64,000 nt of DNA from Ulota crispa (Eukaryota; Streptophyta; Bryopsida; Orthotrichales; Orthotrichaceae), in NCBI GenBank assembly GCA_963920765.1, contig OY987243.1, positions 15,934,001-15,998,000 of the forward strand, in the 5' to 3' direction. Below the pieces are notes generated by a model. It saw only the letters and a list, made by a program, of their open reading frames with translations. It was not told where the DNA came from and searched no databases. This document shows, one piece after another, positions 5,632-51,140 of the stretch (position 1 is the stretch's first letter; every line of letters begins with the position of its first letter). A program made the translations under genes and the position numbers.

Positions 5632-5978
5632 CGCACTTAGCTTGTCAACCGTCCATGCGGGACATAAATTTCCTCAGGCCGCCTCCCGGTTCCAAAACGG
5701 ATCCCGCGATACCGCCCTCTCATCTTAACAGTACAAAATTCCAACCCCGATCCGGAGCTAAATCCAACTCGCCGCATTCCCCCTCTTCCAACCCTCGGCG
5801 ATACCCTACCCACTAATCTCGCCTACACTTCAGAAACCGCCCTGTCAAGCGCACCCCAGAATTCACACAACACTGGCACAGTCAAGGGCGCTCCTCTGCC
5901 TGCCTAACGCGTCACGTCCCAAACGATCCTCCGCCTTGTGTCGGGCGCCTATCACACAACAGACTCCCCACCCCCGGC

Positions 5979-8319
5979 TTAGTCCACCTCCTCGATCTTC
6001 GGCCCCGCTCCCGCCGGCGGCGACTCGTCCCGCGCGTACGACGGAGCCGCGCCCTCGCCGCCTCCCGCACCTCCCCCCTGGTACATGCGCGCGATGATCG
6101 GGTTGCACACGCCCTCCAACTCCTTCATCTTGTCGTCGAACTCGTCGCTCTCCGCCAGCTGGTTCTGGTCCAGCCACTGGATCGCCGCCTCCACCGCGTC
6201 CTCGATCTTCTTCTTGTCCGCCGCGTCCAGGTTCGACGCGATCTTCTCGTCCTTGATCGTGTTCCTCATGTTGTACGCATAGTTCTCCAGCCCGTTCTTC
6301 GCCTCGATCTTCTTCTTGTGGTCCTCGTCCTCCGACTTGTACTTCTCCGCCTCCTGCACCATCTTCTCGATCTCGTCCTTCGACAGCCGCCCCTTGTCGT
6401 TCGTGATCGTGATCTTGTTCTTCTGCCCCGTCGTCTTGTCCTCCGCCGACACGTTCAATATGCCGTTCGCGTCGATGTCGAAGCACACCGTGATCTGCGG
6501 CACGCCCCGCGGCGCCGGCGGGATCCCCGACAGCTCGAACTTCCCCAGCAGGTTGTTGTCCCGCGTCCGCGCCCTCTCGCCCTCGTACACCTGGATCAGC
6601 ACTCCCGGCTGGTTGTCCGAGTACGTCGAAAACACCTGCTCCTTCTTCGTCGGGATCGTCGTGTTCCGGGCAATCAGCACCGTCATCACGCCTCCCGCCG
6701 TCTCCAGACCCAACGACAGCGGCGTCACGTCCAGCAGCAACAAGTCCTGCACCTTCTCGTTGCCCTCCCCGGACAGGATCGCCGCCTGCACCGCCGCCCC
6801 GTACGCCACCGCCTCGTCCGGGTTGATGCTTTTGCACAGCTCCTTCCCGTTGAAGAAGTCCTGCAGCAGCTGCTGCACCTTCGGGATACGCGTCGACCCC
6901 CCGACCAGCACCACGTCGTGGATGGCTCCCTTGTCCATCTTCGCGTCCCTCAGCGACTTCTCCACCGGCTCCATGCACTTCCTAAACATGTCCATGTTCA
7001 ACTCCTCGAACCGCGCCCGTGTGATAGTCGAGTAGAAATCCACGCCCTCGTACAGCGAGTCGATCTCGATCGTCGTCTGTGCCGTCGACGACAGCGTCCT
7101 CTTCGCCCTCTCAGCGGCTGTCCTCAGCCTCCTCAAGGCGCGCGGATTGCTACCGATATCCTTCTTGTACTTGCGCTTGAACTCCTGCACGAAGTGGTTC
7201 ACCATCCTGTTGTCGAAGTCCTCCCCTCCCAGATGGGTGTCTCCCGCCGTCGCCTTCACCTCGAAGATGCCCTCCTCGATCGTCAGAATCGACACATCGA
7301 ACGTACCGCCTCCCAAATCGAAGATCAGCACGTTCTTCTCGCCCACCGACGTCGCCTTCTTGTCCAACCCGTAAGCGATGGCGGCTGCCGTCGGCTCGTT
7401 GATGATTCGCAGTACGTTCAGCCCCGCGATCACCCCCGCGTCCTTCGTCGCCTGCCTTTGCGAATCGTTGAAGTACGCCGGCACTGTCACCACGGCGTTC
7501 TTGATGGTAGACCCGAGGTACGCCTCCGCGATCTCCTTCATCTTAATCAACACCATCGACGATACCTCCTCTGCCGCGAACGTCTTCGTCTCACCCTTAT
7601 ATTCAACGCTGATCATCGGCTTCTCTCCGGGCCCAGGCGTCACCTTGAACGGCCACAGCTTCATGTCACTCTGGACGGAGGCATCACTGAACCGCCTCCC
7701 GATCAACCTCTTCGCATCTACATCACGTCCACGTAAACAGCACAGTTAGCACTCCGCTTCCAAGGACATCACCACAGCTATCCCTCCAACTGACGCCCAC
7801 GGACTGTGCAGCAAAGAGAACCAACTTACTACACAACAATTTCAATGCAACTCCCGAAAAACAGCCCGGTCGCGCTACAAAAGCACCTACGACACACGAC
7901 CTTGCCAACGAAGCCGACCTTGCCGCGCCCCCACCCACACACACATCTAGCCTTCAACGAAACAAAGTAAACGCTTCGCTCCTGCCGCCGCGAAAAAACC
8001 AGCGAGGGATACACTGAACGACCTAACCTAGCACCCCGCGATGCAACAGATCCCAGCGGAAGAAACAATATCAAAATCACACAAGACCGGACTTTGCGAA
8101 CTCACCGAAGACCGTGTTGGTCGGATTCATGGCCACCTGGTTCTTGGCGGCGTCGCCGATGAGGCGCTCCGTGTCGGTGAACGCCACATAGCTGGGCGTG
8201 GTCCGGTTGCCCTGGTCGTTGGCGATGATCTCCACGCGGTCATGCTGCCACACGCCCACGCAACTGTACGTCGTGCCCAAGTCGATGCCGATGGCAGGAC
8301 CCTCGCCCTTGCCGGCCAT
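5979..8319 (-). CDS. HSP70: Cytosolic HSP70, left copy, 650 aa
   Basis: ATP-dependent cytosolic or nuclear chaperone that binds exposed hydrophobic segments with J-protein and nucleotide-exchange partners. On the minus strand, exon 1 is 8106-8319 (codons 1-71 plus one base) and exon 2 is 5979-7717; the GT-AG intron is 388 bp. The splice joins NTVF to DAKRLIG, the conserved plant HSP70 intron site. Visible motifs are IDLGTTYS near residue 12, [14 protein letters not shown] near 200, [17 protein letters not shown] near 335, the substrate-binding core, a Gly-rich tail and the terminal EEVD that binds TPR co-chaperones. The length of 650 aa is normal for the family. The start is the first ATG after the leader; no upstream in-frame ATG exists. 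It is identical to the copy at 29385-31725 and transcribed away from it. No defect is visible. Confidence 0.97.
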
Positions 8320-8553
8320 GGCTGCGCTCTTTTCCAAATCCCTCGGTCGAATGCTGGCGGCAATAAAATCCAAATCTCCTGCTTCTCGCCCTACAACTCA
8401 ACAGGCCGCAAAAACTTCTCTCTGCAAAAACGTCTCTCTCTGCAAAACGTCTGACTCTCTTTGCAAAACTCACAGCGTTCGGGAACCTTGTTACACAGAA
8501 ATGAAATGAAATGAAAGGAGGAGGAGGAGCAGCGAGACCTAAGTATCGCAACG

Positions 8554-8653
8554 GCTGGGAACTTCGGAAGCCCTCGGAAGGTTTTGGAAACCCTGCGAAG
8601 CTCTGAGAAGCACCGGGAAGCTCCGGGAAGCTCCGGGAAGCTCCGGGAAGCTC
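8554..8653 (-). promoter_or_regulatory. 10-bp periodic heat-shock-element-like array (left copy)
   Basis: Mirror image of 29051-29150, about 235-335 bp upstream of the HSP70 start codon. Ten consecutive 10-bp units each carry TTC at the same phase, and five bases later a GAA-like triplet (GGA, AGA, AGG, AAA). This is the alternating nTTCn/nGAAn geometry bound by heat shock factors, though most GAA half-sites are imperfect. Confidence 0.6.
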
Positions 8654-8838
8654 CGGCGGACTTCCGAGCCTCTCTGAAACTGTCCTTCCTTCCGCCCCCG
8701 TCGCTCAGATCCTGGTCGTCCACGTGGACGACGCTTGAATCGACGGCTCTGCCCTCACCGGAATAACTTAAGCTTACTTGTGGCGGAACCCTGTGTTGGG
8801 AAGGTGCGTAGTTCCTGCTGCCGATTTTCTTACCGAAT

Positions 8839-8967
8839 TAAGGTAGACGCACCCATACCAGACTCCTCAATTCCGACCTTATGTATCCAGGGAGAACTGA
8901 AATGTACAGTCTGGGTACATTAAGGGTCAGCCAAGGGGAGGGGTCGGTTTTGGGTGTGTCTACCTTA
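8839..8967. mobile_element. 129-bp TA-flanked MITE upstream of HSP70 (left copy)
   Basis: Mirror of 28737-28865. Its ends are AGGTAGACACACCC and AGGTAGACGCACCC, flanked by TA. It is the smallest member of the AGGTAG family and lies about 520-650 bp upstream of the HSP70 start codon. Confidence 0.65.
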
Positions 8968-9083
8968 GGGTATTTTGGAGCGGTTTGATACAAAGTTTAG
9001 CCGGTAAAAATGGCAAAAATAAATAAAATAAGTGTTTTTTTTGGTACATCCCAAAAACATTCCAAGCAGCCGAAGGTTATTCC

Positions 9084-10011
9084 GAAGGCTCAATTGAATT
9101 GTTTCCGAAATATTTACAGGCAGCCAAATCAATTGGTTGAGATGTGTCTTTTTATGAAAAGTTTTGTAATTAAATAAACGAAGAAGCTATGGATTTTTTT
9201 TCTATCAGCATTCTTGTATTCATGTGCAGCCTAAGTATAAGACATGGCTTACATTTCTTGTGCCTGAGTTTAACGAACTGGCCATCTACAAGTATTGTTT
9301 CAAAAACAAAGAAAAAAGGTTTTTTCTCTAAAAGTTCTATTAATTTTAGTCACCAACAAAAATTGCGTCTTTTTTAATCAATGGAAGACCAGTTTTTAGC
9401 CAGGATTTTAAAAGAAGATACATGTTCCAAAACGTAGGTTTAGACCCAACAAAAACATATGAATTCTCAGAACTTTTAGAACTTTCTAAAATATAGTTGT
9501 AGAAATCAAAGAGTAGAGGGATAAGTAGTATGAAGCTTGAAGTTGCCATTTTTGTCAAGAGGTTATAGGCCTCATGTGTGCCCATCTCAAAAACAAAACA
9601 GATCAATGTTGTGTTAGTGAGATTACACTAGGTGTCTACAATCCATAACAGGTGTTGTTGCTTTTACAAAGAAAAATGGAGATAAAGCATCATTGTTACT
9701 ACAAAATAATCTCATAAGAGCAAAAACTTATATAGCTTTGGATTGAATAATTACTATGCTTTGAAAAAAGTCCCTCTCTTTCTAGTGACTTTGGTCCAAA
9801 ACTCTAGAAGTAGATATTGTCAATTTTTTGAGTATTTGTGAGTATTTTGGTGTAGACTAACGCAACAGAGTTATGCTAATAAGGCAAGGTCTTCTCATGT
9901 ATGTGAGTGCTATAGTGAGGGGACATGCTTACTTAGTCAACTCCTAGTCTTAATGTGTTTGTAAGAGCTTAGGGAAATTGGAGGAAGAGGACAAAAGGTT
10001 GACTCCCTTAC
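9084..10011. other. AT-rich spacer, no gene seen
   Basis: First part of the DNA between the HSP70 arms. Short open frames (9189-9377, 9346-9606) show no domain or coding character. Confidence 0.4.
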
Positions 10012-11292
10012 TCAACCCCTAAATGCCCAAGGCACCAAATTTTGGTATTCAACCAACTTCAAGAAACTTTGAAACTATGTTGAAGGCATAGATTTTATTG
10101 TTTTCAGGTTTTTTTTTTGGAGAAGTTGCGTGCTAAAGTTAGCTTTACCATTCAAATTTAATTTCTTCCATATCTTATTTCCATTGTTTTTGGTGGAAGG
10201 TTGGTTGTGAGCATACTTGTTAAATCATGAATAGTGTCATGAAAAGTATCGTGAAAGCAATGTTGTTGATAGTGTCATGAATAGTGTTGTGAATAGTGTC
10301 ACAAAGCCTAAACAAGTTGCCACATTGAAAAGACATGCATTAAGTTGAGAAAAAGGTGAAGATTTCTCTTGGGCACTCCCTTGGATAGTAACCAGATAGT
10401 AAGGTTCCTTTTACTAAAATTTTGACATTTAACAAAATCTAAAAGTGCTTTTGGACTAATTTCACTTAGGATGTCTCTGTTGAAAACTAGAATTCATTCA
10501 CTATTGAATTTTCTTTTAGTTGTGATGATTTTTGGTCAATAATTGAAGCTCAAAAAATTCTTTGCATTATTCAATTGCTCTTTGACAGTTGCATTGCAGG
10601 CTCATTTGTGAAATTGTGGTCATGGATATGAGAGAAGAGCCATTGGTTTTGAAGTAACAAAAATAAATACAATATCATCCTAAGTGGTTATTTCCCAATT
10701 TTGTATCGAAAAGTTGCCAATTTGCATTATAAGTATTGGGCAACTCCAAAAAAAGCAAAAAAATTCTATACTTGTCATAATTCAATCACAAACAACTATG
10801 GCCTTATGTCATGGCCCAATTTTCATCCTAATTTAATTGTGGTTTTCTTTTCATTTTTCTTTTTTGAATAAGAACACCACCAAAATAAAAGTAAAAATAA
10901 TTTTCTAAATTGTTAATCCATAAAAAACTTCAAAATTCAATAACTTTCTCACTGTAGGCCCAAATGTCATGAAAATGAAACTAAGCTTTGTGCACCCCTT
11001 CTTGTCAAGAGCTTTCCAATGATACCATGCACGCGTTGAGAAGACACACAATTTTGGAGATGACAAATAAACAAACAAACAAACATATAGCCTCATTAAA
11101 AATATTAATATCTTAAAATGCTTGTAGCCATTTTGGATTTTTTTGGGTAGCGCCATCTAGAAGCCTTGAAGTTCAAGCTTCTATGGTTAAAACTTTATTG
11201 TGATGTTTTATAATTATTTTACAAGGACAATTCAAAACTTTAAAACTACCTTCCAAAAATGAGGAAAACACCCTTGGGCATTTAGGGGTTAA
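10012..11292. mobile_element. piggyBac-type MITE, 1,281 bp
   Basis: The right end, reverse-complemented, is TTAACCCCTAAATGCCCAAG. The left end has the same sequence except that TTAA has become TCAA. The terminal inverted repeat of 17 bp after the target is perfect. No transposase domain is visible in the 1.28 kb body. Confidence 0.75.
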
Positions 11293-12687
11293 TGTTCCGA
11301 CTAATTTCATAAATGAATTGTAACCCAAAAGAAAATTGATTGGCTGATTGTTGGCAAAGTATAGAATTAGGTATAAAACTTTAAATTAATCCTTAATCCA
11401 TATGACTAATTATGTAGTGACATTCTAGTTCAAGCCCAAATTTATGAATCCGCTTCAAAACCGTCAAATCATTGCTAGTCATGTACTTGTTCACATAATT
11501 GTTGCATGAACCAACCTTGGAATTGTGTGCAAATTACAAACTCATGCACAAACAACTCAATGATGCTACCATAACTAAATTTAAGTGCAGCAATTACAAG
11601 CGCACAATCAAGCTTGAATGCAAAATGCTCACATGCACAGCCAAGTACAAATGCGGCAGCCCCAAGCGCAAGGCAACTTCAAAGCTTGATGGAGGTTTCA
11701 CCGCGACTGCTAGGAAGAAAGACAACTACTCTTGAATTGGAAAAAAATAGTATCAAATGTAGCAATTTAATGGAGACTCCAACAGTGGCATTTATGATGC
11801 TAGTTTGATTTCCTCGCTTATGCCTACAAGACATCCACAAATGTTGTGAAGATGAAGAAGACAAGGAGCTTTGTGGCTTCAGTTTAGGATTAGCCATATA
11901 CTCATGTTTTGACAATGTCACAAAAGAAGAGCTGTACTTTGTTGTGATGAACAACAAAACTATAGTTGCTCTACACAAAACCTTGAATGTGCATCCAATC
12001 TTGTCCAATGAACCCAATTGTGACATGGACAACCCTAGTTTTGATGGCAACATAGATAGCACATACAAGGGTTGTAGTGACCCTATATACCAGAGTAGCT
12101 ATGAAAGCAACAACAACAACAGCCAGGACACACTAAACCAGAAAGAAGACAAGCATGGCCTAAACTCAAAGGACCAGCATGAAATAGAAGAAGAAGGTGA
12201 CTACTTTGATATACGTACGTCCCCGAAAGCCTCCCAAGTTGACTCAAATTGCCTTCAAAACCCTATCAATGCCAATCGGCAAGGCGACTTCATCGTCTTG
12301 CAAATGCGTCCACAGCTGCAAACCAGTGCTGCAACACAAGAAGAAATCAAATGTCAACAGACCCTTGCTAGCAATTTGCACAAAGCATCAAAGTGTGAAT
12401 AAGAGAAAAAAGACAATGGCGGGTAATCCTATGGAAACAAAGGCAACATCGCTTAAAAAAAAAGAAGTTGTCAAACCTTGCCAAAGTTGAGCAACAAGCA
12501 ACAACATGAGGAAGCACTTCCCAACAGCTACCTGTAGCAGCGCAAAGACCACGCATCATAGGCAAGGGTTGAGGTTGTGGGAGCCAAAATTGCTAGGGAG
12601 ATGATTGTACAAGAGTTGCAATGCAAGGAATAGAAAAAATTGAAGAATACTATACCTCCGCCATATGAACCCATAGGTACAAAAGCT
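11293..12687. other. Intergenic stretch with one low-confidence open frame
   Basis: A plus-strand open frame at 11944-12402 (152 aa) is rich in Asn, Ser, Asp and Glu and has no domain I recognise. Another at 11499-11735 has many Cys and Lys. Either could be a remnant of the acidic amino-terminal part of the nearby piggyBac transposase, but nothing shows this. Confidence 0.3.
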
Positions 12688-13667
12688 TTAACCCCTCATT
12701 GCCAAAGGGGACAGAAAGTGTCCTCTCACACTTTGCTTGTATAATTCAAACTGCTGTAACTTTTGCATTGATAGTTTGAATTCAATAAATTTTCTTGGTA
12801 AAGTTGCACATACAAATCTAGTTGCTATGCAAAAAAATTCAGAATAATCTAAGATGTATTAAGTTTGTGAAAGCCATTCAAAGTTCCCTAGTTCAATTTG
12901 AGTTCACCACATTGCATTGTAATGGCTGCAACTTTGGGGCCTTGTATCTTTTTCATCAAATATATTTTTTCAATAAAATTAGTTGTGTATTGTTTTCCTT
13001 GAATTCTACTAATAGTGGTAAAATTTTCATGTCAACCCAAGTTGTTATGAATGTTTGGGAGCAACTCAAAGTTCAAAATCCACACACTTTTTCATTATTG
13101 TGAACTTTGGTGGCTTGTAACTTCTTCATACAACTTTTGTTTTTGATCATTTTTATTGTAAAAGTTGCGCATGTTAGTCTAGCTGTTGTTGTTAAAATTT
13201 CATTTCAATCCAATGAGTTATAAGTGAATGAGAAGCATTCTAGTAGAGGGAGGATTGGCCATAGATGTGATTTTTTGCTACTTTTTTCACTATTTTTTGA
13301 CACTTCAAAACAATTTTGCAAACATAATGAGTCTATTAAGTTAAAAAAATTTCACCAATGTGTATGTATACTAGTTTTGTATCACTTTGTAATTTAAGTT
13401 TTTTTCATTTGAGCAAGTTTAGAAATCAAAATTCACCTCCAAATGTGTTTTTTAGAAAATTTTAGCATCTTTTTTTAACACTAAAACATTATAATTTTTC
13501 AATCTATGTGGTCAAATGACCTTAAATTTGATCTACATGATTTGCAACAAGCACACTAAAAGATTGTAAGGTTGAAGCTTTCATAGTTTATAAATATTTA
13601 GACTTACAACAAATAAATTGCAAAAAGATTGTTAAGGATCTTTGAACCTTAGGCAATGAGGGGTTAA
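12688..13667. mobile_element. piggyBac-type MITE, 980 bp
   Basis: TTAA stands at both ends. The left end is TTAACCCCTCATTGCCAAAG and the right, reverse-complemented, is TTAACCCCTCATTGCCTAAG. A subterminal palindrome-like stretch, GGGGACAGAAAGTGTCCTC at 12707, matches the palindrome in the 80-bp element at 34347. No coding capacity. Confidence 0.8.
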
Positions 13668-14738
13668 CCTCCATGTGAAAGCATTTGGTGGTCCATCTCA
13701 TGGCTTGGCTCAAAATTGGGACAATTTCCCTTCAATTCTTTAATCATTTGGCTAATTCTTATCTGTTCAAACTTTAAGACGTATTTGTGCGGAAACAAAG
13801 AGATGCGCCATTGAGAAAAGGAGAAGGATGAAGAGTGGGATTGTAAATACTATATGCAATGATAATTATAAGACATACACACATGGAAGCATTGGGTAGA
13901 AAGCAATAGATGTTTGCAAATTCAATTTTGTAAGAATCCGGTTGGGGTATCACTTTCTAGACACACTAATTAGGTTATTTTTGTTTAAAACCTCCAAAGT
14001 TTATCTAATTTGTTCATTTTAATCAAGTAAAAAGACCCTAAAATGAGAAAAAATAAATTGTGCACCTCAATAGAATCAAGATTTATATGTCTAAAGAATT
14101 TTTATTAAATTTATTAAATTTTTTGGATCCATTCATAGGTGTCAAAAAAAATCCTAAATTTTGGGGTTTTCAGGCATTATATTGCACAATTTATTAAATT
14201 TTTACTGATAAAATAAATTATTTTGTACTCTACACAATTAATTGTAGGTCATATTCAAAAACAATATTAAAATAAAATTGCTTGATATTTTAAATGCATG
14301 ATTTTGGGGATTCAAGGTAAGTGTGACAAAACTTATTTTTTCAACTAAAAAATCAAATAAAATTACTCAAAAATCTTTGGTTGTAATCAAACTTTTTTTC
14401 TTGATATGTTATGTGTAGAAAACTAAAACCACATTTGGTGAAGTCTTACTTTATTGTAATAAAAAATTGGATGTGTTTGACACACCAACACATAGTGGCA
14501 TTGTAAGTTGGACAGCTTTTTGGGTACCCCAACTAGAAACTTGCCATTGTAATATCTTTATACATGGGATTGAAGAAACTTTTAAATGTACATATGTATT
14601 GGCAAAAAGCAAAACCATTTTTTCATTGCCAAATTATATCCCAACTTCTATCTTGCAACCACTTTTTACTTCTATCAAAGTGCCTTCACATCACCAATCC
14701 ATGTTCTATGTGCATGAATTAGATATCTCTATCTTATG
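13668..14738. other. AT-rich DNA upstream of the transposase relic
   Basis: No gene is supported. The open frame at 14467-14739 could be an eroded upstream part of the piggyBac transposase because it lies directly before the recognisable domain on the same strand, but I see no conserved motif in it. Confidence 0.35.
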
Positions 14739-15845
14739 ACAAGGTGAACAAAGTGACGTGGTTGTTTAGTGAAATGTGTGATTGTTGCAATGCATTATGG
14801 AATAATGGGGAGAAAATCACCATTGATGAGGTGATGGTTTGTTGTAAAGGAGTAAATTTTCCTCCACGATAGTACATGCGTAAGAAGCCCGAGAAGCGGG
14901 AAATCAAAATTTATACCATACTGATACCGTGACAGATTTTGTTAGCAACTTTGATGTATATTGTTGAGCATTTATTGAAACTATGGAGGCCCTTAAGTCC
15001 AAGAAAGGAGAGTCAAAAATATGGTAAAGGGTGGTTGAGACGTTGCTTCAAGGGTTGGAGGGTCTAAGGTATGTAGTTGTGATGGATAATTTCTTTACAA
15101 GCAGAGAATTAATTTGCAATTTAGAACATGGTGGTACATAGGCAAGAGACACTCTTTACAGCAACCGCATAAGACTTCTTGATTTTATGAAAGATAAAAA
15201 TAAATCATGAAGTCCCCACAATGAAGTCTGTAGTGGGCAATGCATGACTCTCAACAAATGTGTGTAGTGATGTGGACAGATAAAAAATTGTTCCTTCTAT
15301 TATCTACTAGCGCATTGCCATTGGCCTTTCCATGTGAAGTAGTGGAATTCTTGCGCTGAGTAGGTGGATCTATCCATAAAATTAAAACGTCACTGGTTCA
15401 TTTTGAGTATACATCACACATGCGTGGCGTGGACGTGGCCGATCAACTGTGCGATTCTTACTCTCGCCAAGTGCGTTCTCATAATTGGTGGCATTGCTTG
15501 TTCTACTTCCTCATTGATACTAGTGTTGTGAACATGTGAATTATTTATAAGAAGACTATAATGAAGAATGGACGTGGAAGAAAAATTTTATCACATTTCA
15601 ATTTTAAAAAGGCATTATGCAAGGGACTTACAAGCAATTGGGCTAGATAAAAAACAACAATTTCACTATTATTGAAGGACATGCTTCAAATTTGTTGCCC
15701 TCAAAAAAGTCAATTACATCGAGTATGCATTGTGTGCAAGAAAAGAAAAAATAGTTTTTGTGCACTATGCTCATATCAATGGATGTGCTACACATGCAAA
15801 TGCTACATGAAAATGCACCACCGTCTTGGCATATTTTAGATGAAT
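14739..15845 (+). pseudogene. piggyBac transposase (DDE_Tnp_1_7) relic
   Basis: Translation on the plus strand across interruptions gives the piggyBac signature in order: KITIDEVMVCCKG and YMRKKPEKREIKIY near 14809-14920 (family: IDE-MV-FKG...YMPKKP-KWGIK), an FDVYC stretch near 14950, VVVMDNFFTSRELICNL near 15073 with the catalytic Asp, MRGVDVADQLCDSYS near 15420, HNWWHCLFYFLID near 15480, and a Cys-rich tail (C-x2-C pairs ending MHH) near 15725-15830. Several stops and at least one frame change break it, for example stops within VNFPPR*YM and GT*ARDT, so it cannot be active. These enzymes cut and paste at TTAA. The surrounding TTAA MITEs are its plausible former clients. Confidence 0.85.
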
Positions 15846-21700: not shown

Positions 21701-21778
21701 CTTTGTCATTGTTGGTACCGGCACCTTCGCTAAGGCAGAGCCCTTGACGCCCTCTGCACTGGAAAGACCTCCCTCCAT
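18738..21778 (-). pseudogene. hAT-type transposase with introns, decayed
   Basis: The minus-strand frame starts at ATG 21778 (MEGGLSSAEGVKGSALAK). It runs through a Lys/Ala-rich region and a BED-like zinc-finger region (PWSELVLAKDGVQHLV..C..C, DTISKHG..REIHKKC near 21040-21190) into a hAT/DUF4371-like core: HWADGSGWIMAKHLY, LLSADETTTCDNTSW, LCFGADKVSTFQGLK and AHRLNLDA. It ends with the carboxy-terminal dimerisation-type motif SIEDERTFSVLTFLKDKLRN. Two GT-AG introns are plausible at 19913-20103 (joins KAG to ANLALLVDPY) and 19328-19506. Stops occur after CKLHWL, in SKHG*REI and HY*AHR and elsewhere, and a one-base frame change lies near 20920, so it is inactive. Terminal repeats and target duplication were not found. 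Confidence 0.75.
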
Positions 21779-23299
21779 GTTCACTAACCCTACCTCCCCT
21801 CCAACACCCTGAACCACACAAACTGATGCAAATGCAACAGACCAAAATCCTCACCAAAGAGACCCCAAAAGACTCACGGAATAGCAACCACTTCAATTAA
21901 GCCAAACGGTATGGACACGAGGAGAAGAAGGATACTGAATTACAACTTCCCCAAGAGAATGCTACGCAAACACCAAACCCTACATTGCAGCTTGCAATGT
22001 CTGCTCTCCGCAGCCACCCTCCACTACCGCACCATTGAAAGCAAAGACTAATGACTAAGGGATTCAGCCACTAAATTTGCAACCCCCCCATTGTGGAATT
22101 CAATGTGGCTCCCTTGAATTTTCAAAGCAACGTCCCTGGCTGTGAATGCTGCAAGATGAATGGCTGCTGGCGACATCCACCGCTGAGGAGTGGCGGAGTG
22201 CGCTATAAACCCTCCAAGCAAAAATAGAAGTTGGTGCCAGGACAACTTAAACGCACAGCATAGTAGCCTTCAACAGCAAAGTATTGAGAGAGAGATGGCG
22301 ATTTCATCCTCCAAAACCTTGAGAAAGAAGAAGGAGATGGCGTCTCCAACGGCTAGAAGGGGGCGCGCTAAGGTGAAGTAGGCGACGCGACATGGTGCCT
22401 CGCGACGTGGGGGTCGTGGGCAGATGGCAACGTCGAGTCCTCTTCAGCGACAATTCTGTTTGTAATTGGCACCATGGCCTACAACCGCGCGCAGCCATGG
22501 GCCCCAAAGGCCCTATAACCTCATAAATTTTCGTATAGGGCTGGTGTTGGACGTAAAAATTTGGCGCTAAATCACAACAAATTGCCAAAAAAAAAAAGGC
22601 TACGCCTTGCTGGATAATGATCATATATCATTGAAAGTACATATGTCGCAACCAATAAGAATTGAGTGCTTCCAATCATCGTTGGCAAAGACAGAGCTGT
22701 TTATGATGAGTAGACAAGTCACTCAATGGCTACATGGCGGGAACTTGTTATATGGCTGCTTGGCTTTTTGTTTGATAATGTAAATTTTTGAACAAGAACT
22801 TGGATGCAGGCATTGCTGGAGAGTGGCAAGTTCTCCATTTCTGTAGTATAGATTTCTCCAATTCAATATTGCTGGTTATGCTAAACTAGAATGCAATCTT
22901 ACCATTCTATGTTGAACTATTTTTTTCTCTTGAGTGAACGGCTGCTTGTTTTTTTGTTCTCTTCTGTTCTGCTAAGCAGTGAGCGGTGGAGTCTAGCATC
23001 ATGAATCAAGTTTAGGCTGTGCTTTTAAATAATCAAGATGCAACTCTAAAATTAGAAGTCAACTCTTGGATTACTCTTATGCCAGGGACAAGAGGTGGGC
23101 ATGCAAGGGATGCCATGAAGCATGGTGGAAGCAATATAAGAAGGAGCTACAAAGCAAGGATTTTAAAATTTAAAATTTGAGCAGTTCATGTTTCTTCGAT
23201 GCTGGAGGAACATGTGTATATGAGACGTCAATTGCACCTTGATCCAGCAGTGCTATTTACTCAACAAAGTGCTTGCAATAGTAAGTGTTTCATTTCCAA
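21779..23299. other. Mixed-composition DNA upstream of the hAT relic, no gene seen
   Basis: The part 22040-22540 is more GC-rich than its surroundings and has short frames on both strands (22190-22381 plus, 22304-22624 minus) without recognisable domains. It may be the 5' end of the hAT element. Confidence 0.35.
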
Positions 23300-23407
23300 C
23301 CTAACCAACAATTACAACCTAACCAACAATTACAACCTAACCAACAATTACAACCTAACCAACAATTACAACCTAACCAACAATTACAACCTAACCAACA
23401 GTTACAA
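23300..23407. repeat. 18-bp minisatellite, six units
   Basis: The unit CCTAACCAACAATTACAA is repeated six times with one substitution in the last unit. The 18-bp period keeps a frame open that would read NLTNNY repeatedly, but no gene is supported. Confidence 0.9.
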
Positions 23408-23460
23408 CCTCAAGCTTGATTGACAAGGTTAAGTTTGATTAATAAGGTCCAATTTGATAA

Positions 23461-23774
23461 TAGGGGGATTCAAACATAAAATCTGGCCTACGAGTTTCTC
23501 ACCTTTTACGATCCCTGCTCACTAGTGAATTATTTTTCTTCACTCGCACGCCTAAAATCTGACACACCCGTGAGTTGGCAATTAGGGTTTTGTGCACAAG
23601 TCGGGGGTTTGAGCGTTTGAGGCACCAGAGAAGATGAGCCGCGCGAAAGTGAGTTTTTGAAGTTCACTCGTAACATAGGAGTGAATTCCAAAAGTGACTC
23701 ACCTTGCTGTTCACTAGTGAAATCATTGATATGAATTGCAATGTGTCACCTAAAATTGATGTTGGAAGCCCCTA
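23461..23774. mobile_element. TA-flanked MITE, GGGGGCTTCAA family
   Basis: TA flanks both ends. The left end is TAGGGGGATTCAAACAT and the right, reverse-complemented, is TAGGGGCTTCCAACATC. The body, with GCTCACTAGTGAATT and paired TCACTAGTGAA motifs, aligns with 33511-33838. Confidence 0.7.
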
Positions 23775-24351
23775 ATATCTTCATAAGAGTTTAGTATTCC
23801 ATCTGAATGAGATGCAATTGCACTAGTTCACTCAAAGTTGGATTGGGTAGTTAAGATATTGCAACCAAAAGAAAGATGTTGCTGAAAACTTTTCTTTTGA
23901 AACTGAAGTATGCCTCCAAAAATACTAAATTGGTACTAGATGAGTGAAAACACCACCCTTTTTTGAGGGTTTATTTGAGTATATGTTTATGTTCTTAACA
24001 TAAATCTGCTCTTGTTTTTTTCATTCTTTGGTTGATAACATCAAGTTTGATATGTTTTATGCAACAGTCTTATAGTTTGATCACATTACAATTTGAAAAG
24101 AGATTACAGTCAAAGGGTTCTCTATTCAATTTTTTGTATAGTGAATGGGCATAGACATGCCTTTGGCTGTTTTTAATGCACAAGCTAATAAGCCACATCT
24201 GAATGGCAACCTGAGAGATTCCGTGGAAGCTTCAAAACTTGAGGTTTAAATCAAAAAGCTTATTGTTTGTAACTCTTTTGGATGTCCAGATTTATATCTT
24301 TTTGGTTGTGAAGACTAGTTTGATCCGCTAAGCATTCTTGGAGTCATAGTT

Positions 24352-25050
24352 GTGATTCCTAGAGGAATTGGGGAACTCACTCGTGGAAGTAGGACACATG
24401 TAAAGCTGTTAGACAACATCATCTTCTTCTACAACGCAAGATATACACAAGATGGATGCTATGGAAGGCTGGTGCCTATTGCTTTGCCATTGTTTGACTC
24501 CATAGAGTGGCAGCTACTAGACATGGGAACAACTGAAGCTTCTTGTGCCAAACTGCGTCAAGACTTTCAAATAACGATGCGGCCAAACATTGGAAGCAAA
24601 TTGACACACATTTCTTGGTTCATGCCAATTGGCATTTTCATCAACTTGTTTGCAGTAGCAGAAGAACACATGCATAGGACGCCAACAATGTTTGTCTTTA
24701 GAAATGTCAATAAAGACTTATGCTCCTCATTAATGGATCAGGGGTGGGACAAAAAGATTACCATTAGAGCAGACATAATTAGAACAAAGGTACATCTTCC
24801 TTCCCTTTGTTTCCATTATCAGTTGGGCAGATCTACATTATACTCCAATTTTGTATACAACCGTAGCAAGATGGTATCACAAGGAGTATTTGAAGCTATT
24901 GACCAAAACTTAAACAAGACTATGGTTATTGTGCATTGTGAAATGGGTGACAACAAAATCAACATTGAAGTAGGCTTATCCTGGTCACTTTATGATGCCA
25001 AAAAAGAAACTGCAGTTCAAATAGAACTTGCTTTAGAGTCCGAATTCTAG
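24352..25050 (+). CDS. Unrecognised 232-aa open frame, possibly an exon of a broken gene
   Basis: I do not recognise this protein. The frame begins IPRGIGELTRGSRTHVKLL and ends ETAVQIELALESEF. It is well balanced in composition, with no signal peptide or membrane segment, and looks like real coding sequence. Its first codon is GTG, so it is more likely the inside of an exon than a true start. A short upstream stretch from ATG 24145 (MGIDMPLAVFNAQANKPHLN and 13 more residues, ending before a GT at 24247) could be an earlier exon. After the stop the same frame continues for about 36 residues (MYIISDGQATKVNTRKEK) to 25161, which suggests a stop within an older, longer gene. It may belong to a mobile element or be a host pseudogene. 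Confidence 0.4.
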   Translation: MIPRGIGELTRGSRTHVKLLDNIIFFYNARYTQDGCYGRLVPIALPLFDSIEWQLLDMGTTEASCAKLRQDFQITMRPNIGSKLTHISWFMPIGIFINLFAVAEEHMHRTPTMFVFRNVNKDLCSSLMDQGWDKKITIRADIIRTKVHLPSLCFHYQLGRSTLYSNFVYNRSKMVSQGVFEAIDQNLNKTMVIVHCEMGDNKINIEVGLSWSLYDAKKETAVQIELALESEF

Positions 25051-26313
25051 ATGTACATCATCAGTGATGGTCAGGCTACGAAAGTCAATACTAGAAAAGA
25101 GAAGATGTATATTGTTTCTATGGTCCTACCACCAAAGAAATTTGAGTTTAGAATTAGGTAGAAACTTCAATCATGGGCCCTACGTTTGGAACCCATCTGC
25201 TTCCTACGCGGGTGCACTTGGCACGCCACATGGCACTATGTAAAGCAGCAGAAGAATTCAGAGATGCTTCGCGCCTTGCAACGATTGCTTCTTCTCCTTA
25301 TAATGCATCAAACTAAGCATTATCAATGGCAGCTTCTTTATTTTGGAATATATGTGCAATTATTTGATACCAATGTTGGATTGTCTGGATGAGAGGACTT
25401 TTCTTGTTTTTTCCACCTGAATGTTGTGTGTGTTTCTGGTATGTAATCTTAGCGGCATGGTGTGAATTTTCCATTCCCTGGCAGCTCCACATTGCCAAGG
25501 AACCATATTTTTCCACAAAATATGGTGCATGGCGGATGAAGCTATGCTACAATGACATAAAAAATATGTGGTATTAGTATACAATGAAAAAATTTAAGAA
25601 TTTTGTTTTAATATATAACATAAAGAGAAAGTGCATGTTGGTAACACATAACTAGTAGATTTAATGTTTTCTTTAGAAAAGAGAATCTTTCTTGCCAGAA
25701 ACAAGCTAAGGACATTTCTACCGATGGCTCAGACTCACTCAAAGTGGATGAAAAGTGTTGAGGCCCCTCTCAAAATACTCTCAAACATTTTGTTTTAGCG
25801 AGTCTAGTAAGCCACTCTTCAAGCCACTATTCATTTACTATTCATCCTAAGTTTAGTGAGCTTTATCCTCTGCTTTCCTTGATAAGTGGTCAACTACTTA
25901 TTTATGGGATGTGTTGGAGTGTCAAGCCACCTTTTCAAATAGTACGGGTGGAGATCAAGGGGCTTGAAGCCTCGCCAAAACAGGAGAAAAACTTTGAGAG
26001 AGCCCGGACCGGTAGAGATCCCTAAGTATACATATATGGCACTCAAGGTCCACCATTTCCAAACCATGTGAAAGATCAACTTGTATTACATGAATTAGAC
26101 AAAAACCTAGACTTTGCAAAGGCCTCATATTTCATCATGAAGCTAAATTAAGTCCTGTTAGGGGTAGATGAACAAATAGTGGACATTGAAATTTAGTAAT
26201 GCATAGCAATAATCAGCAAAAATTGTCAATTAATGATGGTTTAGAGCAATCTCACCATATTGTGGGTTACTTGGTGTTCACAAAAGCATTTTATGTAAAG
26301 CCAACCCTGTGCT
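25051..26313. other. Intergenic, no gene seen
   Basis: Besides the in-frame tail of the preceding open frame, nothing was recognised. The stretch 25750-25860 has CACTATTC/TACTATTC motifs like those of plant Tourist-type elements, but no paired end was found. Confidence 0.35.
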
Positions 26314-27365
26314 TCAATTTTGTGATTGAAATCTCCTGACTCCTGCTGATTGCTCATTTGTCAGCCTCATTTTGGTGAAGTACAATTGCATTGCATCTAG
26401 TACATGCCACAACTCAAGTCTATCTCTTTTGGCTAGGCCTCTATTTAATGTGTTCTTTTCAGCATTCACAACGTCCATGTAAAACTTTTTAAGTGGATTT
26501 CCTTGGGGATTTGGATTCACTTTGAAAAGTTTGAGGGCATGCGCTCCACTAAAACATGGCTTGTTAGGTACGCTATTGCTTTTGCCACAAATGTCTTCAT
26601 CTTTGAAAATGGTCACATTGTCACCGTGAGCACCTATTAGTGATACTACTTTCTCCATTTCTTCTACAGCTGACTTCCTCAAGACATCATTGCGTATGGT
26701 CCAGATATGAATAAAATGGAGGTGGACTATCTTCTCTACAATTCTATTCAAACCATGCAGAGTGCAAATATGCACTCTATCTAATGGAATTGCAAAAATT
26801 GGTCTTCATTGTTCTTTTGTGGCTTCACCTATCAAAGGTTTGGTTGTAATTTTTTTTGAGAATAAACCTTCATTCCAAGAGTGCTTGCATCTATTACGGC
26901 TTGCAGCTTCAGCATCCACTATTGAGCCAATTCTTGGTTTCACTCGCTCCTGGGAACAGTAGATACATGAATGCAAGCTATTGGTACCATGTTTCAATCC
27001 ATAAACACAGTTGATCGGTTTCATGTCTGCAACAAAATGCCACTCAACTGAGAAATCGCCAATTCCTAGAACATTCAGCAACTGACCTTCACCTTGTAAT
27101 TTAATCAAACTAGGGATCTGGGTTTGATCAAAAACCCACTTTAGAATCTCATGTGATTCTTTTGGCACTTGAAATGATGCAATGGTCAGATCTCTCTCTG
27201 AGTGTACAAAGAAATATCGCTCACTATTAAAGTCGATATTGTTATCTAAAACTCAATTCATTAATGTGATAGATACTCTTTCCATATTTTGTGCGTGTAT
27301 GATCTCCGCTTCATCAAATTTGAGTACAAAGATCAAAGGTTTCCCATTCAATTTTGAAACAAAAT
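26314..27365 (-). pseudogene. Interrupted unrecognised protein with a CxxC motif, mobile-element-like
   Basis: One minus-strand frame stays almost open over about 350 codons and is interrupted twice. Visible stretches include LIFVLKFDEAEIIHAQNMER, VLGIGDFSVEWHFVADMKPI followed by NCVYGLKHGTNSLHSCIYC, then ICTLHGLNRIVEKIVHLHFI, and ending KRDRLELWHVLDAMQLYFTK. The D-K...G-x7-C-x2-C layout followed by a Leu/His-rich segment reminds me of uncharacterised multicopy proteins in repeat-rich eukaryotic genomes. I cannot name the family. A role as a mobile-element protein is inference only. Confidence 0.4.
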
Positions 27366-27642
27366 TAATCAGTGAATCAGAAACAAAATTAGAGTAAATT
27401 GATAATCAATAGACAAAACAATTCCAAAAGATTGATGACATACTAAGAGCTCTTCATAAATTTGGGTTGAATATAAGTAGTCTTTCATATGATAGTACAT
27501 AGTAAACACTACCTCTTTGAGTGAAGATTTAAAATAACAGAGCTTTGCCATATGTAATATAATGAAATGAGATGTAGACTATCAAGAATCCTAGTACCAT
27601 TGAAATGGACAAGCTAGAGTAAATCACTTGAAGATTTTTCTA

Positions 27643-27853
27643 TAGTGCATGACACTTATAACCAACAACTTCCAATTAAAGTGATTAACCTAAGGCTTTG
27701 TCAAAACAAAAGTTATCAAAAATTCAAGTCCACCAAGATGAAGCTTAGGATTTGTCCCACTTGGTGGTAGAATTATTTTTGAGCTAATGAATATATGTGT
27801 TGTGCTTATTTCTTGTTTAACCAATAGTTATTGGTTATAAGTGTCATGCACTA
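27643..27853. mobile_element. TA-flanked MITE, 211 bp
   Basis: TA flanks both ends. The ends are inverted copies: GTGCATGACACTTATAACCA on the left, and the same sequence on the right after reverse complement. No coding capacity. Confidence 0.7.
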
Positions 27854-28620
27854 CAGAACAAAGAAAAGCAAGAATTTTACTAAGTTGTAATCAAATGCAA
27901 ACCTAAGACGTGAAACAAATCTTTCATTTATTCAACTTTTAGAATTATATTTTTGAATGCCGTAGTTTTATCAATTCTGGTATTCAAAAACCCTCTCCTC
28001 AAGCTGTATTATTAGAAGGTTATTGGAAGTCCTTTAAAATTGGTCAAAAAATTACCAAACTAAAAACCAGAGAAAGTGGAGATAAGTTTAAATTCCATTT
28101 TCTTTGTAACTCAAAGCTTGCAGACCTCAGAGTGCTCATATGCAAACCCAAGCATGCAAAAGGAAGTGAATGGTCCTTTAGGAGTTAAACAAGATCCAAT
28201 GGTTGAATTTTGTAGAAACACATTTTGAAAGTTGTTGAGCTGGTTATTCCGGAACTCCTGTTTTTAGAGAAACTTTCAATCAAGACCCTCTTTGGGCGTT
28301 TAGGGGATAAGCTTGTTTCAAATGCAAGCAAAGTCACTTACACTTCCAATACATCAAATGAGATTTACTTCATGAATAAGTATAGCAACTTGAAATTCAA
28401 ACAACCATGTTAGAAATGGCTTGAGCTTCAAACATGGTTTACTAACATAAATCTACTATAGAAAAGACGTAAGAGATATGGTTTCTATCCTCATCAACAC
28501 CAGTACTAATCAATCCTTGACAAATAACATAAATTTGTAATTAAAATATTGACATCAATTTTAGATCTTATTCAAGGCATCTAAACCTCAATTCTGATTT
28601 TCATAATCTTGAAAACTAAA
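27854..28620. other. AT-rich spacer with two orphan piggyBac-type ends
   Basis: Two right-hand termini without partners are visible: GGTCCTTTAGGAGTTAA ending at 28188 and TGGGCGTTTAGGGGATAA ending at 28310. Otherwise no gene was seen up to the sharp inner edge of the HSP70 arm. Confidence 0.4.
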
Positions 28621-28736
28621 GGAATAACCTTCGGCTGCTTGGAATGTTTTTGGGATGTACCAAAAAAAACACTTATTTTATTTATTTTTGCCATTTTTAC
28701 CGGCTAAACTTTGTATCAAACCGCTCCAAAATACCC

Positions 28737-28865
28737 TAAGGTAGACACACCCAAAACCGACCCCTCCCCTTGGCTGACCCTTAATGTACCCAGACTGTAC
28801 ATTTCAGTTCTCCCTGGATACATAAGGTCGGAATTGAGGAGTCTGGTATGGGTGCGTCTACCTTA
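28737..28865. mobile_element. 129-bp TA-flanked MITE upstream of HSP70 (right copy)
   Basis: TA flanks both ends. The left end is AGGTAGACACACCCAAAACC and the right, reverse-complemented, is AGGTAGACGCACCCATACC. It shares the AGGTAG...CACCCATA ends of the 399-448 bp elements at 57247 and 2917, but its body is much shorter. Its presence in both arms means it predates either the duplication or the last conversion event. Confidence 0.65.
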
Positions 28866-29050
28866 ATTCGGTAAGAAAATCGGCAGCAGGAACTACGCAC
28901 CTTCCCAACACAGGGTTCCGCCACAAGTAAGCTTAAGTTATTCCGGTGAGGGCAGAGCCGTCGATTCAAGCGTCGTCCACGTGGACGACCAGGATCTGAG
29001 CGACGGGGGCGGAAGGAAGGACAGTTTCAGAGAGGCTCGGAAGTCCGCCG

Positions 29051-29150
29051 GAGCTTCCCGGAGCTTCCCGGAGCTTCCCGGAGCTTCCCGGTGCTTCTCA
29101 GAGCTTCGCAGGGTTTCCAAAACCTTCCGAGGGCTTCCGAAGTTCCCAGC
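29051..29150 (+). promoter_or_regulatory. 10-bp periodic heat-shock-element-like array
   Basis: Ten successive decamers: GAGCTTCCCG four times, then GTGCTTCTCA, GAGCTTCGCA, GGGTTTCCAA, AACCTTCCGA, GGGCTTCCGA and AGTTCCCAGC. TTC stays at one phase for nearly 100 bp, and the triplet five bases later is GGA, GGT, AGA, AGG, AAA, AGG or AAG. Heat shock factor sites are alternating nTTCn and nGAAn pentamers, so this looks like a long array with weak GAA half-sites. It begins 334 bp before the start codon. A separate TTTCAGAGAGGCTCGGAAG lies just upstream. No clear TATA box was seen. Confidence 0.6.
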
Positions 29151-29384
29151 CGTTGCGATACTTAGGTCTCGCTGCTCCTCCTCCTCCTTTCATTTCATTT
29201 CATTTCTGTGTAACAAGGTTCCCGAACGCTGTGAGTTTTGCAAAGAGAGTCAGACGTTTTGCAGAGAGAGACGTTTTTGCAGAGAGAAGTTTTTGCGGCC
29301 TGTTGAGTTGTAGGGCGAGAAGCAGGAGATTTGGATTTTATTGCCGCCAGCATTCGACCGAGGGATTTGGAAAAGAGCGCAGCC

Positions 29385-31725
29385 ATGGCCGGCAAGGGCG
29401 AGGGTCCTGCCATCGGCATCGACTTGGGCACGACGTACAGTTGCGTGGGCGTGTGGCAGCATGACCGCGTGGAGATCATCGCCAACGACCAGGGCAACCG
29501 GACCACGCCCAGCTATGTGGCGTTCACCGACACGGAGCGCCTCATCGGCGACGCCGCCAAGAACCAGGTGGCCATGAATCCGACCAACACGGTCTTCGGT
29601 GAGTTCGCAAAGTCCGGTCTTGTGTGATTTTGATATTGTTTCTTCCGCTGGGATCTGTTGCATCGCGGGGTGCTAGGTTAGGTCGTTCAGTGTATCCCTC
29701 GCTGGTTTTTTCGCGGCGGCAGGAGCGAAGCGTTTACTTTGTTTCGTTGAAGGCTAGATGTGTGTGTGGGTGGGGGCGCGGCAAGGTCGGCTTCGTTGGC
29801 AAGGTCGTGTGTCGTAGGTGCTTTTGTAGCGCGACCGGGCTGTTTTTCGGGAGTTGCATTGAAATTGTTGTGTAGTAAGTTGGTTCTCTTTGCTGCACAG
29901 TCCGTGGGCGTCAGTTGGAGGGATAGCTGTGGTGATGTCCTTGGAAGCGGAGTGCTAACTGTGCTGTTTACGTGGACGTGATGTAGATGCGAAGAGGTTG
30001 ATCGGGAGGCGGTTCAGTGATGCCTCCGTCCAGAGTGACATGAAGCTGTGGCCGTTCAAGGTGACGCCTGGGCCCGGAGAGAAGCCGATGATCAGCGTTG
30101 AATATAAGGGTGAGACGAAGACGTTCGCGGCAGAGGAGGTATCGTCGATGGTGTTGATTAAGATGAAGGAGATCGCGGAGGCGTACCTCGGGTCTACCAT
30201 CAAGAACGCCGTGGTGACAGTGCCGGCGTACTTCAACGATTCGCAAAGGCAGGCGACGAAGGACGCGGGGGTGATCGCGGGGCTGAACGTACTGCGAATC
30301 ATCAACGAGCCGACGGCAGCCGCCATCGCTTACGGGTTGGACAAGAAGGCGACGTCGGTGGGCGAGAAGAACGTGCTGATCTTCGATTTGGGAGGCGGTA
30401 CGTTCGATGTGTCGATTCTGACGATCGAGGAGGGCATCTTCGAGGTGAAGGCGACGGCGGGAGACACCCATCTGGGAGGGGAGGACTTCGACAACAGGAT
30501 GGTGAACCACTTCGTGCAGGAGTTCAAGCGCAAGTACAAGAAGGATATCGGTAGCAATCCGCGCGCCTTGAGGAGGCTGAGGACAGCCGCTGAGAGGGCG
30601 AAGAGGACGCTGTCGTCGACGGCACAGACGACGATCGAGATCGACTCGCTGTACGAGGGCGTGGATTTCTACTCGACTATCACACGGGCGCGGTTCGAGG
30701 AGTTGAACATGGACATGTTTAGGAAGTGCATGGAGCCGGTGGAGAAGTCGCTGAGGGACGCGAAGATGGACAAGGGAGCCATCCACGACGTGGTGCTGGT
30801 CGGGGGGTCGACGCGTATCCCGAAGGTGCAGCAGCTGCTGCAGGACTTCTTCAACGGGAAGGAGCTGTGCAAAAGCATCAACCCGGACGAGGCGGTGGCG
30901 TACGGGGCGGCGGTGCAGGCGGCGATCCTGTCCGGGGAGGGCAACGAGAAGGTGCAGGACTTGTTGCTGCTGGACGTGACGCCGCTGTCGTTGGGTCTGG
31001 AGACGGCGGGAGGCGTGATGACGGTGCTGATTGCCCGGAACACGACGATCCCGACGAAGAAGGAGCAGGTGTTTTCGACGTACTCGGACAACCAGCCGGG
31101 AGTGCTGATCCAGGTGTACGAGGGCGAGAGGGCGCGGACGCGGGACAACAACCTGCTGGGGAAGTTCGAGCTGTCGGGGATCCCGCCGGCGCCGCGGGGC
31201 GTGCCGCAGATCACGGTGTGCTTCGACATCGACGCGAACGGCATATTGAACGTGTCGGCGGAGGACAAGACGACGGGGCAGAAGAACAAGATCACGATCA
31301 CGAACGACAAGGGGCGGCTGTCGAAGGACGAGATCGAGAAGATGGTGCAGGAGGCGGAGAAGTACAAGTCGGAGGACGAGGACCACAAGAAGAAGATCGA
31401 GGCGAAGAACGGGCTGGAGAACTATGCGTACAACATGAGGAACACGATCAAGGACGAGAAGATCGCGTCGAACCTGGACGCGGCGGACAAGAAGAAGATC
31501 GAGGACGCGGTGGAGGCGGCGATCCAGTGGCTGGACCAGAACCAGCTGGCGGAGAGCGACGAGTTCGACGACAAGATGAAGGAGTTGGAGGGCGTGTGCA
31601 ACCCGATCATCGCGCGCATGTACCAGGGGGGAGGTGCGGGAGGCGGCGAGGGCGCGGCTCCGTCGTACGCGCGGGACGAGTCGCCGCCGGCGGGAGCGGG
31701 GCCGAAGATCGAGGAGGTGGACTAA
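29385..31725 (+). CDS. HSP70: Cytosolic HSP70, right copy, 650 aa
   Basis: Same gene as the left copy, in the opposite orientation. Exon 1 is 29385-29598 and exon 2 is 29987-31725, with a GT-AG intron of 388 bp. The protein starts [19 protein letters not shown] and ends GPKIEEVD. It therefore belongs to the cytosolic/nuclear plant HSP70 group rather than the BiP (HDEL), plastid or mitochondrial groups. Signature motifs of the ATPase domain, the substrate-binding domain (starting near residue 390) and a lid with a Gly-rich tail are intact. The leader holds a run of CTCC repeats and three purine-rich GCAGAGAGA-type repeats. The first ATG of the leader is the chosen start. Regulation by heat shock factor is likely from the upstream array. 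Both copies look functional. Confidence 0.97.
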
Positions 31726-32635
31726 GCCGGGGGTGGGGAGTCTGTTGTGTGATAGGCGCCCGACACAAGGCGGAGGATCGTTTGGGACGTGACGCGTTAG
31801 GCAGGCAGAGGAGCGCCCTTGACTGTGCCAGTGTTGTGTGAATTCTGGGGTGCGCTTGACAGGGCGGTTTCTGAAGTGTAGGCGAGATTAGTGGGTAGGG
31901 TATCGCCGAGGGTTGGAAGAGGGGGAATGCGGCGAGTTGGATTTAGCTCCGGATCGGGGTTGGAATTTTGTACTGTTAAGATGAGAGGGCGGTATCGCGG
32001 GATCCGTTTTGGAACCGGGAGGCGGCCTGAGGAAATTTATGTCCCGCATGGACGGTTGACAAGCTAAGTGCGCACGTGCGTGTTTGTATCTAGTAGTTGT
32101 AGCGGAGTGTGTCGTGTGTTGCGGGGTATGTGGTTTGGCTATGTTGTGGTGGTGGAAGTGGTTGGATGTTGGAAGCTGTGGATGGCTAGTCGGCCTGAAC
32201 GTGGGTTTCGCTCAGTGGCGAGCGAGCCCGTGGTTGCATCGCTTGTTGTAGATGTGAGGTATTTTTTTTTTTCCGATTTGGAATCGTCGGCCATGTTGTG
32301 TGTGGTGTGATTTATTCGCGTTTTGGTGATTGGGGCGCCGGAATGGTCATGCCGTGGATTGGGGTTACGTTGGGGCTGTACTTATAGTTGGTAGCTTTTT
32401 TGTGCGCCTATCGTTGGAAGGTTGTGGGTTGTATTGGCGTTAGTGTTCGGGAATTTTTTTCTTTCACCAGCTAAAAACGGGCATCTTTTGTACTGAACCG
32501 GTTTTCTTGCATACTGTGCCGGATATATTTCTAAATTTACATAGTAATATACTGTGTTTAGATCTTTTAGTAAAATTTAACCGGGTTTTTTTTGTTGGCA
32601 ATTTCAAATTGCAACCGAGTTTTTAGCCATTTCCG

Positions 32636-33177
32636 TTAACCCTTAGCTCCTCAACGCCCGAGGGCCGTTTATTTCGCCCGTCTGAATTTTGTTCAGGGAT
32701 ACTGAAAGTTTTTTGAAGATTTTTTGTGTGATTATTATATCTAAATTGTTGTGGAAGTCTAATTTCAAGTCTAATTTCAAGTCTAATTTCAGCATCAAGA
32801 GTCTCAGTAACATGATTTGTCTACTCAAGATTTTGTGCAAGGGTGTCCATTGCAAATCTTCACTTTCTAGTGTTTGAAGGATAGATTTTGAGAAGCCATA
32901 AATTGATTGGGGTTATGCATGTTGTATTTTACATATTCTTATTTTTTTGGTACCCTCAATTTTAGGTCTGAGATGCAAAAAGATGATAGAAAGACTTCAA
33001 ATCACTTTCCTAGTTTTAACAGCGTCATGATCAAACTTTATAATCTTTCAATCCATAAGTGAAATAGTTGTGATTTCTTTTTGTATGCAAGCTATAACAT
33101 GTCTACTTTGAATATGTACGATTACATTTCAAAGAAAATTGGTATACTCCAAAATTCTAGGGGTGTTGAGGGGTTAA
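32636..33177. mobile_element. piggyBac-type MITE, 542 bp
   Basis: TTAA at both ends. The left end reads TTAACCCTTAGCTCCTCAAC and the right, reverse-complemented, TTAACCCCTCAACACCCC; they align if the left carries a few extra bases. A further single end (GGGCATTGAGGTGTTAA) stops at 33405 and may belong to a second, adjoining copy. The left HSP70 flank has no counterpart. Confidence 0.6.
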
Positions 33178-33510
33178 GCGCCCCTTCGAGGGTATATTGT
33201 CAATGGGGCCTACAATGTCATTTCATTTAAAAAAAAATTTGTACGGTGAAATTAGCCATGGTTGGTCCCCATCTGCAGAGAATATAGTCCTTTTGCAAAT
33301 CTCATAGTCACTTTTTTTGGATGTAATTTTCCAAGCTGTAGTGGCCATTAAACCCCCCATTTTCTCCCAAATCCAAAATTAGTTCTGGGCATTGAGGTGT
33401 TAATGCCTTGTAAGGTTTTTGTGGGGTCACCCACCTTGGACCCACCATTGCTGATTTTTTGCCATTTCCACCAGCTAACAATCAACTAGCAGTCGGTTTT
33501 TCCCGCACAT

Positions 33511-33838: not shown

Positions 33839-33940
33839 TTGATTGGCGTGGAATGAGTCGCGCGTGAGTCATGTATTTTGTTGGTTTTTACTTGGAGAGT
33901 TGGAGGCAGCATTGGACGTTCTGCCACTCCAAATCACATG

Positions 33941-41183: not shown

Positions 41184-51140
<9,957 letters not shown>

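Follow-up and report, generated by a model that had tools for sequence, protein, structure and literature searches.

Identical inverted arms carrying two HSP70 genes

We analyzed a 64-kb stretch of the 274.8-Mb Ulota crispa genome (C2:15934001–15998000, referred to as the window, whose own numbering is used below for positions given without a prefix), which contains no N. The PsaL protein of this genome scored best against four photosystem I chains from Physcomitrella (7xqp, 8htu, 6l35 and 7ksq, at 331.6, 328.1, 321.6 and 310.7 bits, the next at 285.4), and a ribosomal protein SA fragment was equally different from wheat and tomato chains; a grass origin, at first suggested by the high GC3, was dropped on these grounds. 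Two HSP70 genes, copy B on the minus strand and copy C on the plus strand, lie in it head-to-head, with transcription directed outward and the 5′ ends facing a 19.5-kb spacer (9084–28620). Each gene sits within an arm, at 5632–9083 for B and 28621–32072 for C. Letter-by-letter comparison of the left arm with the reverse complement of the right arm revealed 0 differences over 3452 bp, at a coordinate sum of 37704, and the first base past either end is already mismatched. The original prediction, that the arms match without difference at this sum and that the identity takes in coding sequence, intron, promoter, a MITE and about 350 bp of 3′ DNA, was thus borne out: each arm contains the whole HSP70 gene together with 764 bp upstream and 347 bp of 3′ DNA. 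A MITE-like multi-copy element with inverted ends is present at 8829–8987 in the left arm, with its mirror copy at 28717–28875 in the right. The G+C content of the non-coding arm parts was 0.505–0.579, compared with 0.318–0.492 in the flanks measured, which is compatible with GC-biased conversion and also with mere gene proximity.

Copy B consists of a 214-bp exon 1 (8106–8319, minus strand, ATG at 8319), a 388-bp intron (7718–8105, GTGAGT...ATGTAG) and exon 2 with the stop codon (5979–7717), mirrored on the plus strand in copy C by exon 1 (29385–29598), intron (29599–29986) and exon 2 (29987–31725). The Pfam HSP70 domain (PF00012) spans residues 9–618 of the 650-aa product (E 1.6e-261), so the domain is full-length. 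The products of copy B and of a third copy, A, described below, terminate in IEEVD, and C is the same as B in sequence; we take the C-terminal EEVD to be the mark of cytosolic HSP70.

Upstream of each gene, nine TTC triplets occur at exact 10-bp spacing (8567–8649, minus strand, for B; 29055–29137, plus strand, for C). A five-unit version of this pattern matched at 10 overlapping positions of the window, each of them inside an arm, compared with a mean of 0.00 in 100 shuffles. We read the array as a candidate degenerate heat-shock-element array. Upstream of copy A the TTC run has only four units. Perfect three-unit heat-shock elements were found upstream of neither A nor B, and those with one mismatch numbered five in B and three in A. 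Judging from the promoter pattern, the chaperone encoded by B and C is probably heat-inducible, and two identical promoters and proteins would be expected to raise its output.

Nine ORFs of 120 aa or more lie in the spacer, and Pfam searches of five of them returned no match. Elsewhere in the window, an ORF on the minus strand (48200–48649) contains a DBINO domain (PF13892, E 1.6e-21), a domain known from INO80-type chromatin remodelers, and shifted self-matches revealed short tandem repeats at 23291–23410 and 52289–52429, with units of ~18 and ~30 bp, respectively.

Diverged flanks and a third copy with an identical tract

To align the flanks, the arms themselves were left out of the comparison. 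The outer (3′) flanks matched in five collinear blocks in inverted order, at 65–75% identity with gaps counted and 70–79% ungapped (best E 2e-97, weakest 1e-3). The homologous span runs from 5604 to 4015 beside copy B and from 32117 to 35385 beside copy C, so that ~1.6 kb on one side corresponds to ~3.3 kb, insertions included, on the other, and the diverged homology begins no more than 45 bp from the arm end. Translated matches between the flanks were spread over 18 frame pairs, none of them prominent, consistent with non-coding DNA, and a coding gene as the explanation of the outer-flank homology was therefore rejected. Inward of 9083/28621, on the 5′ side, the search gave no alignment, and the ends of the spacer adjoining the arms share no homology; the identity of B and C is thus bounded by diverged homologous DNA on the outer side only. 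The original prediction had described the surrounding DNA as still homologous, heavily diverged and differing by insertions, and had named a pairwise alignment of the flanks as a check. That description holds on the outer side, where the alignment is significant, and fails on the inner side. No transposable element terminating at 9083 or 28621 was found among the matches listed, in which the repeats nearest to the two edges start ~0.4 kb away on the left and stop ~0.1 kb away on the right. The right outer flank also contains a 230-bp self-inverted repeat (33941–34171, 91%) that has no counterpart in the left flank.

Genome searches located copy A at C2:15801802–15804196 on the minus strand, 138 kb to the left, so that one chromosome carries three cytosolic HSP70 copies inside ~165 kb, two on the minus strand (A and B) and one on the plus strand (C). 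Elsewhere, at C1:37926503–37927815, the searches returned HSP70-like sequence interrupted by numerous stop codons, which is probably either a degenerate copy or an intron-rich gene read unspliced. Copy A is ~95% identical to B and C overall, and the differences are unevenly distributed. A 923-bp tract within exon 2 (C2:15801922–15802844 in A; 6061–6983, minus strand, in B; 30721–31643, plus strand, in C) shows 0 differences among the three copies and is flanked on both sides by differing sequence. In codons 1–316, 41 codons differ between A and B/C, all synonymously; differences restart at codon 624, and from there to the end 8 codons change synonymously and 4 with a change of amino acid. When the 43 differences in codons 1–628 were placed randomly 100,000 times, the longest run free of differences was 643, and 0 placements reached 923.

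The same break is seen in the silent sites. The dS between A and B/C was 0.134 for codons 1–71, 0.243 for codons 72–316, 0.005 for codons 317–624 and 0.648 for codons 625–650, the sole change in codons 317–624 being codon 624, at the edge of the tract. The silent-site difference amounts to 12–21% upstream of the tract and 0 within it. Two other pairs served as controls. Against a cytosolic HSP70 paralog on C4, whose protein is 87% identical, both halves of the gene were saturated at silent sites, indicating that general silent constraint is absent; silent-site constraint as the cause of the identity of the tract was rejected on this ground. A BiP pair on C1, on the same strand and 860 kb apart, showed even divergence (dS 0.406 and 0.319), with a longest identical run of ~130 bp. 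Copy A and B/C therefore display what is looked for as marks of gene conversion, namely silent sites homogenized inside the tract and not outside it, and an identical tract set between diverged homologous sequence on both sides.

Probable gene conversion and its alternatives

The steps in identity, the third copy, the tract bounded on both sides and the silent-site controls all support conversion, and we consider it highly probable that nonreciprocal ectopic gene conversion has recently transferred sequence among three old HSP70 duplicates. The earlier reading of the locus as an old duplication with gene conversion is accordingly supported, and the internal 923-bp identical tract of A strengthens it. 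Old duplications would have produced A, B and C; at least one conversion event would have rendered B and C identical across 3452 bp, and another transfer would account for the 923 bp of exon 2 that A shares with B/C without a difference. The most economical account calls for two or more nonreciprocal transfers, one between B and C and one involving A. For B and C, conversion within homologous flanks is evident on one side only, since the inner edge lacks homology beyond it; this edge may reflect one-sided copying or an old rearrangement. From the orientation of the copies, we infer an asymmetry in the effects of crossing over: between the inverted B and C, a crossover would merely flip the spacer without loss, whereas between the direct A and B it would delete ~138 kb.

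To estimate the ages of these events, we assumed a rate between 5e-9 and 1e-8 per site per year, a range of plant values not measured in mosses. At these rates, the 95% bounds from zero differences place the B/C event at less than about 80–200 kyr ago and the exchange of the A tract at less than about 0.7–1.4 Myr ago. The outer flanks, at a Jukes-Cantor distance of 0.24–0.38, would have separated about 12–38 Myr ago.

The chief alternative to such exchange is that a gene-sized piece was copied once, and recently, over an older relic in one of the arms, for instance by a one-sided break-induced or template-switch process, with no homogenization continuing afterward. One event suffices for B and C, and the abrupt drop from identity to no homology at the inner edge is what such copying would leave; any claim of ongoing exchange hence depends on the A tract. 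That tract, internal to exon 2 and bordered by differences at both ends, requires a separate transfer, and we regard a single event as unlikely, though with an appreciable chance of being correct. A recent simple inverted duplication, with the likeness of the flanks due to chance or to repeats, would likewise fit an inner edge with no homology beyond it, and the ribosomal protein SA pair nearby, described below, is sharp-edged at both ends. Five collinear blocks in the correct inverted order, the best with an E of 2e-97, and a third copy with an internal identical tract make this hardly credible. Purifying selection alone could account for the 0 amino-acid differences between the A and B proteins in codons 1–633. 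It has next to no chance of being the explanation, given that the identity of B and C extends to the intron, the upstream and the 3′ DNA and that silent differences fall from 12–21% upstream of the A tract to 0 within it.

An error of assembly, in which the arm was duplicated by the assembler or during curation or represents a second haplotype, had been named as the alternative in the original prediction. The genome note (PMC11803377) describes a haploid gametophyte with a genome of 275.00 Mb in 11 chromosomes, chromosome 2 being 36.98 Mb, assembled from PacBio HiFi data (21.28 Gb in 2.18 million reads, mean ~9.8 kb) with hifiasm and YaHS. The contig N50 of 0.6 Mb, 742 gaps and 50 curated joins given there, and the separate deposition of second-haplotype contigs, leave room for such an error, as does a 200-N gap interrupting one copy of an inverted HSP110-like pair on C6. 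However, the plant is haploid and the mean HiFi read exceeds the length of the arm (PMC11803377), the arms are in inverted orientation, and their four ends each adjoin a different unique flank. A, B and C moreover lie on one gap-free stretch (15796597–16028000 contains no N); the 264 kb examined include a single run of N (15796397–15796596), 5.2 kb beyond the copy A match. Finally, a simple error involving B and C would leave the internal tract of A unexplained. We therefore judge an artifact to be very unlikely.

Other inverted pairs and comparison with known systems

The original prediction attributed the arrangement to convergent selection for high HSP70 dosage. This idea is unsupported, as inverted pairs that are near-identical or equal-scoring are also formed by genes for ribosomal protein SA, HSP110, tubulin and rbcS; an explanation specific to HSP70 was dropped for the same reason, given the inverted close copies of ribosomal protein SA, tubulin and rbcS. 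The families compared (HSP70, HSP110, ribosomal protein SA, tubulin, rbcS and HSP90) were chosen by hand and do not amount to a census. Between A and B, ~41–70 kb to the left of the window, lies an inverted pair of 40S ribosomal protein SA genes (C2:15864374–15866634 and C2:15891181–15893441), 2261 bp long with 2 differences near one end and 24.5 kb apart. A DNA search of the genome returned these two matches only, and comparison of the ~0.6 kb beyond their ends gave one additional match, of 44 bp at 86%. The HSP110-like inverted pair (C6:18158001–18163000 and C6:18190201–18195200), whose copies are ~30 kb apart, shares an identical run of 2321 bp with a diverged 5′ edge, in addition to the 200-N gap inside one copy.

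The tubulin and rbcS pairs were judged by equal HMM scores, which differ from DNA identity. By this measure, inverted pairs occur on C1 for tubulin at 5.047/5.058 Mb (C1:5047417–5047914 and C1:5057851–5058348) and for rbcS at 27.531/27.560 Mb (copies within C1:27491216–27560585), and three equal-scoring tubulin copies alternate in orientation on C3 at 2.894–2.923 Mb (C3:2894455–2922978). Direct equal-scoring pairs are also present (tubulin at C1:32.26/32.28 Mb and rbcS at C1:27.491/27.554 Mb), making it harder to argue that such copies are inverted as a rule, and HSP90 showed no close equal-scoring pair among the 43 matches listed. We entertained the idea that haploid-dominant mosses keep core, highly expressed genes as inverted near-identical pairs ~10–30 kb apart for the purpose of repair, the mirror copy serving as an intrachromosomal template in a plant that would have no homologous chromosome during most of its life, in the manner proposed for palindromes of the mammalian Y. 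If this were true, the HSP70 pair would be one among many self-repairing pairs, including those of HSP110, ribosomal protein SA, the tubulins and rbcS; we hold it to be doubtful and improbable.

In mammalian Y-chromosome palindromes, gene conversion proceeds from arm to arm. They resemble the Ulota locus in that inverted copies are kept alike by conversion without a partner chromosome, and differ from it in their far longer arms and their location on a sex chromosome; the resemblance is one of working only. Among HSP70 genes, a close parallel in arrangement is found in Drosophila, where Hsp70Aa/Ab and Hsp70Ba/Bb form palindromic pairs for which gene conversion has been inferred (PMC3924832). 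As in those pairs, linked HSP70 genes stand in mirror orientation in diverged surroundings, a likeness of arrangement only and not of common descent. Unlike them, the Ulota pair has a 19.5-kb spacer and a third copy 138 kb away, and it rests on one genome, whereas the Drosophila case includes shared polymorphisms and comparison of orthologs (PMC3924832). Conversion tracts, an inverted pair and diverged flanks with indels are also reported among the clustered hsp70 genes of the dipteran Stratiomys singularior, where, unlike in Ulota, the cluster measures 29 kb and the evidence includes several alleles (PMC3071340).

Within mosses, cHsp70-1 and cHsp70-2 of Physcomitrella patens likewise form an inverted tandem pair of near-identical cytosolic HSP70 genes, arranged tail-to-tail rather than head-to-head as in Ulota (PMC5028893). 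That pair, with a Ka of 0.0008 and a Ks of 0.0030, was attributed there to tandem duplication, in a text where the term "gene conversion" occurs 0 times. For Physcomitrella tandem genes in general, neighbors are described as unusually alike and conversion has been suggested (PMC3045890, citing Lang et al. 2008). That is a general suggestion, in contrast to the tract edges and silent-site controls available for the single locus in Ulota. In the literature searched, which included few subscription journals, we found no report of HSP70 gene conversion in Ulota or in inverted pairs of mosses. The locus is a clear, new and unusually well-resolved example of a process that is well established in flies and had already been suspected in mosses: a single plant locus bears the marks of two transfers, one of an entire gene and the other, to or from a copy lying 138 kb off, of part of a gene, and silent sites provide the controls. 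These findings favor the view that neighboring duplicates are homogenized in mosses, caution against the use of Ks to date moss duplications of this kind, and predict that spacer orientation and tract edges vary among individuals.
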